Shown here in pieces: positions 4,192-32,420 of a DNA stretch of 45,625 nucleotides. The stretch is taken from positions 1-45,625 of the IMG/VR virus record IMGVR_UViG_3300017990_000027; one strand, written 5' to 3'. The position numbers and the translations under genes were made by a program. This stretch comes from a virus. Numbering within the stretch: the stretch's first letter is position 1; every line of letters starts with the position of its first letter. The notes below the pieces were generated by a model. It was not told the DNA's origin. It searched no databases and was given only the letters and a program-made list of their open reading frames with translations.

Positions 4192-5088
4192 ATGAAAGTT
4201 ATCGGAATATTTCCAGGAGGCGGAGCGATGGGAACGATCTCCGTTTCGTGTTGGAAAGCTCTCAGCCTTAAGCTGAGGAGATCGATCGTCGACCTGGTCG
4301 ACCTGGGAGTCGGAACCTCGGTCGGATCTATTATTTGGGGCGGTCTCGCCTCCGGAAAGATTAAGACTCCGGATCTCCTTGAGGTTTTTAAGAAAGAGAT
4401 CCCGAGAACCTTTCGCCGGCGACGCGGGATCTATCCAAAATACACGCGTAAATATTTGACTCGTGCGATGCTCGATATATTCGGTCCGGACTTTCGTCTC
4501 GGCGATACTGTAAAGGACTGCATTATTACAGCGGTCCGAGGTGAGACGAAACGGAATCATTTTTTTAAATCATACCAGACAAAGGACGGACATCTCCCTC
4601 TCCTGGAGGCGATTACTCGATCTTATTCCGCTCCTTATTTTTTCGGAAAATGGGTCAATAAACAAGCTCGCGAGACGTGGCTCGACGGCGGGACCGGCTC
4701 GATGAATTGTCCGATCGTCGCGGGAATCTGGGAGGCTATTCGTAAAAACTGGCTCGGCCGAGAGCGTGTCCATGTCATAAGTATCGGGACTGGCTATCAC
4801 TCAGAGGAGAGAGCTTTCGACAAGCTCCGAAAAATGAGAATGTTTAAAGAGGTCGCGATGTTCCTGGATCCAATGGACGGAGGCCTGGCTCGATATCAAT
4901 CTCTCCAGGATAATATCGGAGCCGGAAACGATCTCCTCGATTGTGTTTCGGACTTTACATTTCAACACGTCGACGTCGAGCTCGATCGGCGTCTCTGTAA
5001 AATCGACGGATGGAAATACATCGACGAATATATTGATCTTGGTCAATCTATGGCCGAGAAAATTGATCTCGATAATTTTAAGGAGTGA
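4192..5088 (+). CDS. Patatin-like phospholipase
   Basis: A 298-residue protein with all landmarks of the patatin / bacterial phospholipase A family. These are the oxyanion-hole loop GGGAMG (residues 9-14), the nucleophile elbow GTSVG with Ser43, and the catalytic Asp in DGG at residue 165. Patatins hydrolyse ester bonds of membrane phospholipids with a Ser-Asp dyad. No signal peptide is visible. It sits between a holin-like gene and the endolysin, 3 bp before the latter, so a role in membrane disruption during lysis or release is the simplest inference. A role against the host, as in CapV-type effectors, cannot be excluded. Strong ribosome binding site GGAGCGGAGGACAGG precedes the ATG. Confidence 0.9.
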   Translation: MKVIGIFPGGGAMGTISVSCWKALSLKLRRSIVDLVDLGVGTSVGSIIWGGLASGKIKTPDLLEVFKKEIPRTFRRRRGIYPKYTRKYLTRAMLDIFGPDFRLGDTVKDCIITAVRGETKRNHFFKSYQTKDGHLPLLEAITRSYSAPYFFGKWVNKQARETWLDGGTGSMNCPIVAGIWEAIRKNWLGRERVHVISIGTGYHSEERAFDKLRKMRMFKEVAMFLDPMDGGLARYQSLQDNIGAGNDLLDCVSDFTFQHVDVELDRRLCKIDGWKYIDEYIDLGQSMAEKIDLDNFKE

Positions 5089-26904: not shown

Positions 26905-28773
26905 ATGCCGATCGATCAATTCGCTATCGATTTAATAAAGAGCCAGAGGGAGAGCCTCGGGATCTCTAATCGGAAACTCGGCAGAGTGCCGGCTCAAAAA
27001 TACCCTCGTCAGTTCGAGGCGAAATATTCGAGGAAACTCCTCGCTCTTGTTCGATCCTGGGAGGCTCTTGTTAAGGAGAACCTCTTTCCGCTTTTAACGG
27101 GAATCGCTCAGGATTACGATCTGGAGAACGATAATCCGATGCGATCGGACGGAGCTGTTGAGGATCTCAATAAGCTAATGCAAGTTATTGAGACAGGAAT
27201 GACGATCGCTCCGGAGACGCGCCTCCTGGCTCTTAATATCGGCCAGAATACAAGCGAATGGAACGATAAAAACTGGAGGCGGACTTTAAGGACCGTCCTC
27301 GGCGTCGATGTCTTTACTCGTGAACCGTGGCTCGAGAATCTCCTCCAGGGTTTCGCTGACAAGAACGTCGCACTCATTACGAAAATGAGAGACGAGACTC
27401 TCCAGGATATTCGGCGGATTACGATCGAGGGCCTGGAGTCTGGAAAGCGAGTCCGGACGATCCGAGCGGAGATCCTCAACGGGACGAAACTTCAAGCTGG
27501 CCGTTTTAAGAAAACCAGGACCAGAGCTCAACTGATCGCCAGGGATCAGATCGGAAAGCTCAACTCTCAGCTCACAGAGAACCGTCAGACCGCTCTCGGT
27601 ATAGACGACTATACCTGGAGGACGGCTCTCGACGAAAGAGTCCGAGGCAATCCGGCCGGCCTGTATCCGAACGCGGTTCCGTCTCATTACGATCGGGAGG
27701 GAAAGACTTTCTCCTGGAATGATCCGCCGGCCGGCGGACATCCTGGAGAGGCGATTCAGTGTCGATGTGTAGCGGAGCCGAATATCGAGGAGCTCGCTGA
27801 TCTGATCGGCCCTCAGGGAAAGGATCTCGTCCCGCTTCCGAAAGGTCAGAAAAAGAAAACAGGGAAAGAGATCGATCTCAAAGAGTTTAAACCTCCGACG
27901 ACCGATCAAGAGGCGATCGATAACTGGACGGCCTGGTTGAATCAGCCGGAAGCTCCGACAGTTAAGAATCAGAATCAATTTCGACAACATCTCAAAGGAC
28001 TCGGTTTCTCGAAAACCACAGGAGCCGATTTTGATAACGCTAACAGGAACCAGATCCTCCTCGGTTATTATAAAACCGGAAATCTCCTCGGACCAGAGAT
28101 ATCGTCCCAGGCCTTTAAGGGAATAACTTCGAGACGTATCTCGGCCCTGGCTCGCGCTCCGTTGACTTTTTATAAAGGCCAGGATCGGACGATGCAGTTA
28201 AATTCAATCAGCTTTAAAGATAAATCCGGTTTAGTTGGTCCCTCCGGCACTGTCCGGACTTTGGATAAACCTATTCGCGAAAACATGAACTCTGGATTTT
28301 CCGCTCCGTCAAATAAAGGAGAGGAGATCGCGTCGATTATATCTCACGAGGCCGGTCATCAGGTCACAAGATACGAGCGAGGATTTATTGAGATGAAAGA
28401 CGGCCTCGGTCGCCCTGGTAAGGTATGGATACCGCATCAAAAAGGGACGAAACCGTCGGCCGGATTTAACGCGGAGCTGTATCCGTTTTTCGAGGAGGTC
28501 CGAGATCGTAAACTGAGAAAGGATCTCAGAAAATCGTATAAGACAGAGGAGGAGTTTAAGAAATTGGTCGACGAGATGACTCCGACAGCTCGGGACCAGG
28601 CACGTAAGGAGAGCCTGACCGCGGATCTTTCGGAATATGCCTCGACTGATTACTTTGAATTTGTATCCGAGGGATGGACGGAATATGTTCACTCTGACAA
28701 TCCGAGGCCGGTCGCTAAAAAGATCGGAGAGACTGTCGAGAAATATTACTCGGAGGGCGGGACTTTATATTGA
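26905..28773 (+). CDS. MuF-type head protein fused to an HExxH metallopeptidase-like domain
   Basis: A 622-residue two-part protein. Residues 1 to about 290 are an SPP1 gp7 / MuF-type minor head protein, with the typical RTRAQLIARDQIGKLNSQLT helix and a C-terminal EAIQCRCVAEP motif at about 284-294. After a charged linker (about 310-340) comes a C-terminal region with HEAGH at 481-485 and a later EFVSEGWTEYVH segment (Glu589), the pattern of a zincin metallopeptidase. MuF proteins are packed in the virion and in other phages carry C-terminal toxin or enzyme domains that enter the host. The peptidase target is unknown; prohead processing is another option. Confidence 0.8.
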   Translation: MPIDQFAIDLIKSQRESLGISNRKLGRVPAQKYPRQFEAKYSRKLLALVRSWEALVKENLFPLLTGIAQDYDLENDNPMRSDGAVEDLNKLMQVIETGMTIAPETRLLALNIGQNTSEWNDKNWRRTLRTVLGVDVFTREPWLENLLQGFADKNVALITKMRDETLQDIRRITIEGLESGKRVRTIRAEILNGTKLQAGRFKKTRTRAQLIARDQIGKLNSQLTENRQTALGIDDYTWRTALDERVRGNPAGLYPNAVPSHYDREGKTFSWNDPPAGGHPGEAIQCRCVAEPNIEELADLIGPQGKDLVPLPKGQKKKTGKEIDLKEFKPPTTDQEAIDNWTAWLNQPEAPTVKNQNQFRQHLKGLGFSKTTGADFDNANRNQILLGYYKTGNLLGPEISSQAFKGITSRRISALARAPLTFYKGQDRTMQLNSISFKDKSGLVGPSGTVRTLDKPIRENMNSGFSAPSNKGEEIASIISHEAGHQVTRYERGFIEMKDGLGRPGKVWIPHQKGTKPSAGFNAELYPFFEEVRDRKLRKDLRKSYKTEEEFKKLVDEMTPTARDQARKESLTADLSEYASTDYFEFVSEGWTEYVHSDNPRPVAKKIGETVEKYYSEGGTLY

Positions 28774-28934
28774 ACATTAAAAAGGCGATTGAATTAATAG
28801 GTCGATATCTGGCCGAATATCTCGAAAAACGGTTCTCTGGGACTCTAGTCTTTAAATTTGACTGTCGAGACGGAGGGATCGGGAGACTGTCTCTTGAGGT
28901 TAAAAAAGACCTCACGAAAGAGATCGACGATTGA
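28770..28934 (+). CDS. 54-residue small protein after MuF
   Basis: A TTG at 28770 overlaps the MuF stop as TTGA and opens 54 codons ending TGA at 28934. GGCGGG lies about 8 bases before it. The product has a helix (IKKAIELIGRYLAEYLEKRF) and a beta pair (GTLVFKFD, GRLSLEVKKD), a believable small fold. Its coupling to a MuF-peptidase gene makes an inhibitor or immunity partner conceivable, but there is no direct evidence. Confidence 0.45.
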   Translation: MNIKKAIELIGRYLAEYLEKRFSGTLVFKFDCRDGGIGRLSLEVKKDLTKEIDD

Positions 28935-28938
28935 TTTA

Positions 28939-28967
28939 TTGACTTTCATTTGTTTTTATGCTATCTT
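28939..28967 (+). promoter_or_regulatory. Rightward sigma-70 type promoter inside the head gene cluster
   Basis: TTGACT (28939-28944), 17-bp spacer, TATCTT (28962-28967). The spacer shares TTGTTTTTATG with the promoter at 23419. Start of transcription would be near 28974. An intrinsic terminator follows within 100 nt. Confidence 0.7.
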
Positions 28968-28973
28968 TGTATT

Positions 28974-29069
28974 GTACGGACGCTGAGGATCCATCGAGAA
29001 AAATGACCTATCCACAGGCCCGTCGAGAGCTAAGGGTTCAATTCCCGACGCTTTCGGCGGGCCTTTTTT
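28974..29069 (+). ncRNA. Candidate small RNA or attenuated leader
   Basis: Between the promoter at 28939-28967 and the strong terminator ending at 29069 lie about 96 bases without a convincing reading frame. The 3' half folds as one long nested hairpin: a 10-bp stem, then AGC/GCT, then GGG/CCC around a TTCAATT loop. The result is either a discrete small RNA or a leader whose terminator controls head-protein expression. The ends are inferred from promoter and terminator positions. Confidence 0.5.
29017..29069 (+). terminator. Long intrinsic terminator before the scaffold/protease gene
   Basis: GGCCCGTCGA (29017-29026) pairs with TCGGCGGGCC (29054-29063), 10 bp with one G-T pair; inside it AGC/GCT and GGG/CCC pair again around TTCAATT. 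Six T residues follow directly (29064-29069). It is one of the strongest terminator structures here, yet the next head gene starts only 14 bp later. Confidence 0.8.
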
Positions 29070-29082
29070 ATTGGAGTGATTT

Positions 29083-30549
29083 ATGCCGTATCCTAATGAA
29101 CACAGCGCGAGGCTCGCGGATCCTGGAAAGTTTGTCAGGTTTCGCCGTGAGAACAATAAACTCGGTGAGGGAATCGATGCGATTTTCGGAATAACCGAGT
29201 CCGGAGATTCTGAGATCCAGGCGATCCGTTTCTCCTCGGAAAAATTCAGCCTGTCGGACGTCAAGTCCTGGCTTAAAGATCACAACCACAAAGAACTCCT
29301 CCTCGAGGAGGCATCCCGAAAAGATTCCGCTGACGTGATCGAGGTCGATCGTTGTGACTATGTCTCGAAAGCGATCGGCTCGGTTAAGAAAACCGACGAC
29401 GGTTATCTCCAGGGAGTTGCTCCGATCGCAAAGGTCGGAATTATGAAATATCGTCTCGCTGATGGGACTCTCCGTCGAGAGTTCGTCCCTCCTGAGACTT
29501 TGTTCGAGTCGGACTCGATGGACTCTCTTAAATTAAAACCGATGACGAATCAACATCCTCCAGAGATCTCGATCGATTCAAAGACAGTAAAGCGTCGACA
29601 GGTCGGATCGACAGGAGAGAACATCGCAAAATCAGACGGAGTTTTTCTCACCACGAGCCTCGTCCTCACAGATAAAAAGATGATCGATAACGTTGACAGT
29701 GGACAGCAGGAACTCAGTCCAGGATATAAGGTCTCTGTTCTCCTGGAGCCTGGGACATATAAGGGCCAGAATTACGACGCGATTCAGGTTAAGCGGAGAT
29801 ATAATCATGTTGCCGTCGTGGATACGGCAAGAGGCGGAGCGGATCTCCGTCTCCATATAGATAACGAGGACCGTTTCGACGGTTTTATTGACATAGATCA
29901 GAATGATGACAGTCCATCAAATAACAATCCAAAGGAGGACCGTATGGTCAAAGTAACATTAAACAAAATCGCGTATGACGCGGAGCCGGAAGTCGCGAAT
30001 CATATCGACGCCCAGGACAAAAAGATCGAGGAGCTCCAGGCGAAAGTCGACGAGCTGACGTCTGAAAAGGATAAGGTTCAGGCGAAACTCGACTCGGCCG
30101 AGGAGGAAAAGACAAAGGCCGACGAAAAACGTCAGGATGATATCGACAAGGCTGTTGAGTCTCGTCTGGCTCTGGTAACGGTCGCGAAAGATCATCTCGA
30201 CGAGGACACCAAGATCGACGAGATGTCTGACAAAGATATCACTCTCGCAGTCATCGCGAAAGCATTTCCGGACCGGAAGCTCGACGGTAAGTCTGACGGC
30301 TATATCGAGGGAGCGTTCGAGTCTGCTGTTGAAGTCCTGAGCAAAAAGGACGGAGACGGTGACGGAGACGGTGACGGAGATGATGACGACGGAAGTAAGT
30401 CCGACGGCATCAAGAACCAGAGACGTAACGACTCCGGAAAGAAAACCGGAGATGGCGACGGTGAGGACAAAGTCGACTCCGACGAGTCCCATAAGAACAT
30501 GGTCAAGCGCATGACCAACGGCTACAAGCGCGACGACGACAAAAAGTAA
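29083..30549 (+). CDS. DUF2213-type capsid maturation protein with scaffold domain
   Basis: A 488-residue protein. The N-terminal about 270 residues match DUF2213 in pattern (KPMTNQHPP, then GQQELSPGYKVSVLLEPGTY and RYNHVAVVDTARGG), a family placed before the cement and capsid genes and thought to be a head maturation protease. The C-terminal about 200 residues are a charged coiled coil (HIDAQDKKIEELQAKVDEL) followed by an Asp/Gly-rich GDGDGDGDGDDDDG stretch and a basic end, which fits a scaffold. An internal start at 29944 would give the scaffold part alone. Protease activity is inferred from family. Confidence 0.8.
   Translation: MPYPNEHSARLADPGKFVRFRRENNKLGEGIDAIFGITESGDSEIQAIRFSSEKFSLSDVKSWLKDHNHKELLLEEASRKDSADVIEVDRCDYVSKAIGSVKKTDDGYLQGVAPIAKVGIMKYRLADGTLRREFVPPETLFESDSMDSLKLKPMTNQHPPEISIDSKTVKRRQVGSTGENIAKSDGVFLTTSLVLTDKKMIDNVDSGQQELSPGYKVSVLLEPGTYKGQNYDAIQVKRRYNHVAVVDTARGGADLRLHIDNEDRFDGFIDIDQNDDSPSNNNPKEDRMVKVTLNKIAYDAEPEVANHIDAQDKKIEELQAKVDELTSEKDKVQAKLDSAEEEKTKADEKRQDDIDKAVESRLALVTVAKDHLDEDTKIDEMSDKDITLAVIAKAFPDRKLDGKSDGYIEGAFESAVEVLSKKDGDGDGDGDGDDDDGSKSDGIKNQRRNDSGKKTGDGDGEDKVDSDESHKNMVKRMTNGYKRDDDKK
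29944..30549 (+). CDS. Nested in-frame scaffold protein (internal start)
   Basis: Codon 288 of the DUF2213 gene is an ATG at 29944 with a perfect AAAGGAGG five bases upstream (29931-29938), stronger than the signal of the full-length gene. It would give a 201-residue product made only of the coiled-coil and acidic scaffold region. This matches the lambda C/Nu3 arrangement, in which a scaffold is made from the 3' end of the protease gene. The signal is seen; the product is inferred. Confidence 0.7.
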   Translation: MVKVTLNKIAYDAEPEVANHIDAQDKKIEELQAKVDELTSEKDKVQAKLDSAEEEKTKADEKRQDDIDKAVESRLALVTVAKDHLDEDTKIDEMSDKDITLAVIAKAFPDRKLDGKSDGYIEGAFESAVEVLSKKDGDGDGDGDGDDDDGSKSDGIKNQRRNDSGKKTGDGDGEDKVDSDESHKNMVKRMTNGYKRDDDKK

Positions 30550-32392: not shown

Positions 32393-32420
32393 CCGGCGGA
32401 CTAAGGTCCGCCGGTGTTTT
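32393..32420 (+). terminator. Terminator after the major capsid gene
   Basis: CCGGCGGAC (32393-32401), loop TAAG, GTCCGCCGG (32406-32414) form a perfect 9-bp stem followed by TGTTTTCTTT. It would raise the relative level of capsid message over the neck and tail genes. Confidence 0.85.

Follow-up and report, generated by a model that had tools for sequence, protein, structure and literature searches.

What is a promoter followed closely by a strong terminator doing in the middle of the head genes of a phage? This question is raised by an IMG/VR viral record of 45.6 kb, referred to here, at its full length, as the window. The protease, cement, capsid and tail genes are among the most needed in infection, yet they are placed behind a conserved promoter and a strong terminator. 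The initial annotation considered that this arrangement could specify a discrete small RNA or an attenuator, with expression of the downstream head genes controlled by antitermination.

Promoter, leader and terminator in the window

The late genes of the window lie on the plus strand in the order small and large terminase, portal, MuF-like gene, 54-aa ORF, DUF2213 protease, cement and capsid. The head module is Pam3/Mu-like, with a cement protein of the Pam3/E217 type and a capsid protein of family PF09950. Searching with the protease retrieved one further contig (7.6 kb), which is identical. Another strong terminator-like hairpin, with nine pairs and a T-rich tail, is found immediately 3' of the capsid gene (32393-32414). 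The features of the locus and of its relatives are collected in Table 1.

Table 1. Features of the promoter-terminator unit, its neighbours and selected counterparts in related loci (window coordinates unless a locus is named).
Feature	Position	Strand	Basis
MuF-like head morphogenesis gene, upstream neighbour of the unit	26905..28773	+	PF04233, E 6.6e-12; phrog_324, E 1.2e-71
54-aa ORF, TTG start, conserved partner of the unit	28770..28934	+	HMM family, 40 distinct loci
sigma70-type promoter TTGACT-17-TATCTT, extended -10	28939..28967	+	Sequence; orthologous place in relatives promoter-enriched
Predicted non-coding RNA, about 96 nt (leader 28974-29015, then terminator)	28974..29069	+	Position relative to -10
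Putative terminator hairpin: 15 bp, 3x3 internal loop, 3 bp, 7-nt loop	29016..29064	+	MFE, conservation
Terminator tail, six T	29064..29069	+	Sequence
DUF2213 head maturation protease gene, adjoining the 3' side of the terminator	29083..30549	+	PF09979, E 1.3e-34; phrog_530
Other members of the small ORF family	L005:4711-4893; L016:677-874
Example promoters in relatives: L018 TTGACA-18-TATAAT; L183 TTGACA-17-TATACT; L026 TTGACA-17-TATTAT
Element GCGCGATAATATCAACC, two copies in covarying hairpins, second overlapping the terminator 5' arm	L020:3550-3690; L084:3560-3702

The promoter first proposed at this position is confirmed by direct reading, with a -35 hexamer TTGACT (28939-28944), a 17-nt spacer and a -10 hexamer TATCTT (28962-28967), to which a TG extension (28959-28960) can be added. 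It reaches 9 of 12 matches in the promoter scan. Across the region, promoter-like sites picked up by a simple scan are about twice as numerous as in shuffled sequences (36 vs 19), so that the window promoter is by itself weak evidence, the question is not settled from the window alone, and conservation makes the case. A Bacteroidetes-type promoter (TTG...TAnnTTTG) was also considered, as its -10 fits, but it was rejected because the hexamers of the relatives are of the ordinary sigma70 kind. The 54-aa ORF ends 4 nt before the -35, and the gene-free gap initially described between the head genes is smaller to that extent.

The hairpin is stronger than the 10+3+3-bp geometry first attributed to it. 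Indeed, 29016-29030 and 29050-29064 form 15 contiguous pairs, an inner GGG/CCC closing the 7-nt loop, and the MFE of -35.3 kcal/mol (z = -7.3) is matched by none of 200 shuffles; the description of a strong hairpin followed by six T residues holds. The likeness of the inner GGG-TTCAATT-CCC to a tRNA T-arm finds no support and is most likely due to chance. A tRNA or tRNA-derived element was rejected since ARAGORN detects no tRNA and the resemblance is limited to three GC pairs, with the neighbouring A.A and A.G unpaired. Past the hairpin, the protease gene has a ribosome site GGAG at 29073-29076 and its ATG lies 13 nt after the last T of the tail.

Conservation of the unit in related phages

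The place of the unit is easily located, as it stands 3' of the small ORF. This ORF belongs to a family of 54-65 aa encoded 3' of the MuF gene and sharing the pattern F[TS]GK..ITI...GGIG. The protein of the window is predicted to consist of a helix and a beta-hairpin (AlphaFold2 mean pLDDT 80); it has no match in Pfam or PHROG, and a fold search gave no significant match. In the phage collection searched, neither the small ORF of L016 nor the junction DNA of the window found a match. Two particular arrangements are seen next to the small ORF. In L005, a strong ribosome site accompanies a short ATG...TAA frame (MPVFC) located just 3' of it and 5' of the predicted promoter (4950-4985), and in L181 a tRNA-Met gene is carried on the opposite strand between it and the terminator (2735-2809).

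Related loci were gathered by capsid and protease searches, and the small ORF was located by its HMM in 40 distinct loci. A hairpin followed by a T-run can be identified 3' of the small ORF in all 40, the hairpin being chosen by an automatic scan in most loci and set by eye in eight where the scan took another one. In an automatic comparison that ignores kinship, a strong terminator is present at the junction in 35/36 loci with the small ORF vs 21/104 without it; among these 21, many are long structures and some overlap genes.

Promoters were scored in the 130 nt 5' of the hairpin for 37 non-redundant units, against dinucleotide shuffles. A score of at least 10.5 is obtained in 15/37 units for 0.55 expected, and a score of at least 11 in 10/37 for 0.12 expected; scores are weak in about 15 of the 37. 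Pairs formed by a promoter and then a terminator at the spacing of the unit occur in 16 units, vs 6 pairs elsewhere in 168 loci (1.61 Mb, both strands). Promoter-like and terminator-like sequences are thus found in the same order and at similar spacing at an orthologous place, and the conservation of stem and promoter on which the initial annotation had made its proposal depend is strongly borne out. The compensatory stem changes that it regarded as supporting evidence are also found. Read directly, the window, L005 and L008 keep the stem paired through changes in both arms, and pairing is likewise retained through sequence change between L020 and L084, a count that is weak alone as 44/500 shuffles reach the same.

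Dozens of related uncultured phages carry this three-part unit at the equivalent position, which argues for a real and undescribed regulatory element. Judged from its sequence, the promoter-RNA-terminator unit is real and orthologous, and the libraries searched contain no description of it. Rfam gave no covariance model match at the gathering score, with weak chance-level matches only. One divergent relative (L127) is carried on a contig from a bacterial isolate, Rufibacter sediminis H-1. The unit is absent from the nearest cultured phages compared. Little DNA separates the MuF gene from the protease gene in Hafnia phage Meifeng, Escherichia phage tunus and Faecalibacterium phage FP_Brigit, and Synechococcus phage S-CBS4 has other genes at that place.

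The hairpin starts 48 nt after the -10 in the window, and the predicted RNA measures about 80-110 nt in most units. ORFs run through the hairpin in 13/20 units for 11.6 expected, and a ribosome-site-like sequence precedes only one of them. Ribosome-mediated attenuation and a small coding gene were rejected on these grounds, no leader peptide being found across units, and the stretch between promoter and terminator appears non-coding. When the proteases are 66-85% identical, leaders (48 nt) show an identity of 0.67-0.83, which exceeds both the 0.54-0.57 expected by chance and the 0.41-0.56 of protease third codon positions; leader identity drops to chance once protease identity is below about 60%. 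This conservation among near relatives, lost with distance, suggests that the sequence matters and that its turnover is fast. The leader is under sequence selection, as expected equally of a small RNA or of a bound leader. No single covariance model was used across units because the leaders align too poorly. A weak motif, about CGGTTGCTT, is common to the leaders of a subset. As it was spotted by eye first, the score of a motif search is the fair figure, namely 48.8 vs 36.4 +- 3.0 in shuffles, a score to which the relatedness of the units adds. Leaders with a GGTAGCCGGATCACCT-like sequence occur in L186 (2884-2945) and L190 (2402-2460), and L017 and L018 carry CCTCCTTTC. The GGTAGCCGGATCACCT-like sequence presumably resembles pieces of the 3' end of 16S rRNA; both kinds of leader sequence may represent ribosome mimicry or chance.

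Proposed short RNA and read-through, and alternative explanations

The end of the stem is separated from the next start codon by a median of 22 nt, and by 8-30 nt in 33/41 loci. This spacing is also kept where another gene replaces the protease (L148, L155, L159 and L162). In these four loci and in L170, extra genes stand between terminator and protease, possibly encoding virion decoration proteins. Such short spacing usually leaves no room for a further promoter, so that the downstream genes need either read-through or promoters further in. As the terminator blocks the way into the protease, cement, capsid and tail genes, these would be fed largely by read-through.

The reading that we favour, with a probability of about 0.6, is that the unit is a conserved short-RNA gene within the late operon, which would behave like the pR'-tR' region of lambda: its default product would be a short terminated RNA, and read-through would give the late genes. 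After starting at the sigma70 promoter, a host-type RNA polymerase would transcribe about 95 nt of non-coding RNA before being stopped by the strong intrinsic terminator. The ribosome site of the following head gene adjoins the T-run of this terminator. Once late transcription is on, read-through would supply most of the expression of the protease, cement, capsid and tail genes. The default state would correspond to that of lambda 6S RNA, the source of StxS in Shiga-toxin phages, in which a constitutive promoter yields a short terminated RNA. We infer transcription, termination and regulated read-through, as well as any action in trans of the short RNA.

It is rather unlikely that the unit is purely a trans-acting small RNA gene parked in the late region, acting on host or phage mRNAs, with a terminator that only ends the RNA and lies near the next gene through compact packing. 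The possession of its own promoter and terminator would agree with this, as would a leader that is selected yet turns over fast, which is common for small RNAs, the possible exchange of the next gene, and the enrichment of CCTCC/CTCCT in leaders (6/37 vs 1.6 expected). However, among the phage sites searched, leaders show no significant pairing with the ribosome sites of the next gene, capsid, cement or MuF (cement reaches z -2 among six tests, and the terL score comes from two loci only), and a strong terminator before the capsid genes would be left to explain. Still less probable is a cis attenuator, whose leader would fold as terminator or antiterminator under the control of a phage or host factor, the short RNA having no role. 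An alternative fold as a general rule was rejected, because over 37 units the complementarity of leaders to the 5' arm of the terminator does not exceed that of shuffled leaders (z = 0.01), and a leader peptide is lacking. What speaks for it comes from L020, L021 and L084, which carry two copies of a nearly invariant 18-nt loop (elsewhere given as 19 nt). The stems that close these loops contain 4 doubly changed pairs, a count reached by 5/500 shuffles, and the second of them, an alternative stem, uses the terminator 5' arm. As this case is drawn from two lineages only, alternative folding may control read-through in that sub-lineage, where the hairpin pair of L020/L084 is a candidate protein-controlled antiterminator. 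Chance, by which a promoter-like site would happen to precede an ordinary terminator ending the upstream gene block, is very improbable. The window promoter taken alone, with its incomplete match in a region where such sites are common, would allow it, but not the recurrence of the pair at an orthologous place in many phages when it is nearly absent elsewhere.

Small RNA and attenuator were the right pair of alternatives, although leader selection, pairing and antiterminator searches do not separate them. As for control by antitermination, the Q families PF03589, PF06530 and PF06323 have no match in the window and nine relatives, records that are possibly incomplete (PF06323 being searched without a positive control), and no NusG-like protein was detected in the same ten; an antiterminator-like fold is seen in one sub-lineage. 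A terminator kept before the head genes across a diverse phage clade implies either antitermination that is not recognisable as Q-like or NusG-like, or a conserved regulatory RNA overlooked in annotation, which would miss it because it is non-coding and fast-evolving. A more speculative and doubtful extension is that the short RNA makes up one functional pair with the helix-beta-hairpin protein of 54-65 aa conserved alongside it, for instance as an RNA-protein regulator or as an RNA for head assembly or packaging. It would then represent a class of RNA new to phages, found so far only in phages not yet cultured and in a small number of bacterial contigs.

Comparison with known systems

Two-hairpin antiterminators controlled by proteins, with a hexaloop, are known as the ANTAR/EutV type. 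The L020/L084 element is similar in its pair of hairpins, which share one loop, and in the overlap of the second hairpin with the terminator. It differs by a loop of 19 nt instead of a hexaloop and by its restriction to one sub-lineage, the window lacking it.

The comparison with lambda pR'-tR' is chiefly drawn because there is little room for a promoter between the terminator and the next gene. Both share a sigma70 promoter of constitutive type, a short untranslated stretch, an intrinsic terminator and late genes behind it. The predicted RNA of the window is about half the length of lambda 6S RNA. In lambda, the region heads the late operon, whereas in the window the unit lies within the head cluster and follows a small ORF. 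Q allows polymerase past the terminator upstream of the lambda late genes (PMC7171158, PMC4825925), a protein whose families, as mentioned above, were not found in the window and nine relatives.

The put RNA of HK022 (PMC9378689) is also a phage RNA element linked to termination control, but it suppresses termination in cis and serves early genes, and no put-like hairpin pair is seen in the unit. In Shiga-toxin phages, the regulator StxS originates from the PR'-to-tR' region (PMC7873438). It is bound by Hfq, processed by RNase E and has known targets, whereas the RNA of the window is only predicted; the common point is a regulatory RNA that derives from a terminated transcript, in the interval from a late promoter to its terminator. 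IsrK of the prophage Gifsy-1 (PMC4825925), with which no sequence relation is claimed, adjoins an antirepressor gene instead of head genes, and offers the same economy of one promoter giving both a short terminated RNA and a longer read-through message.
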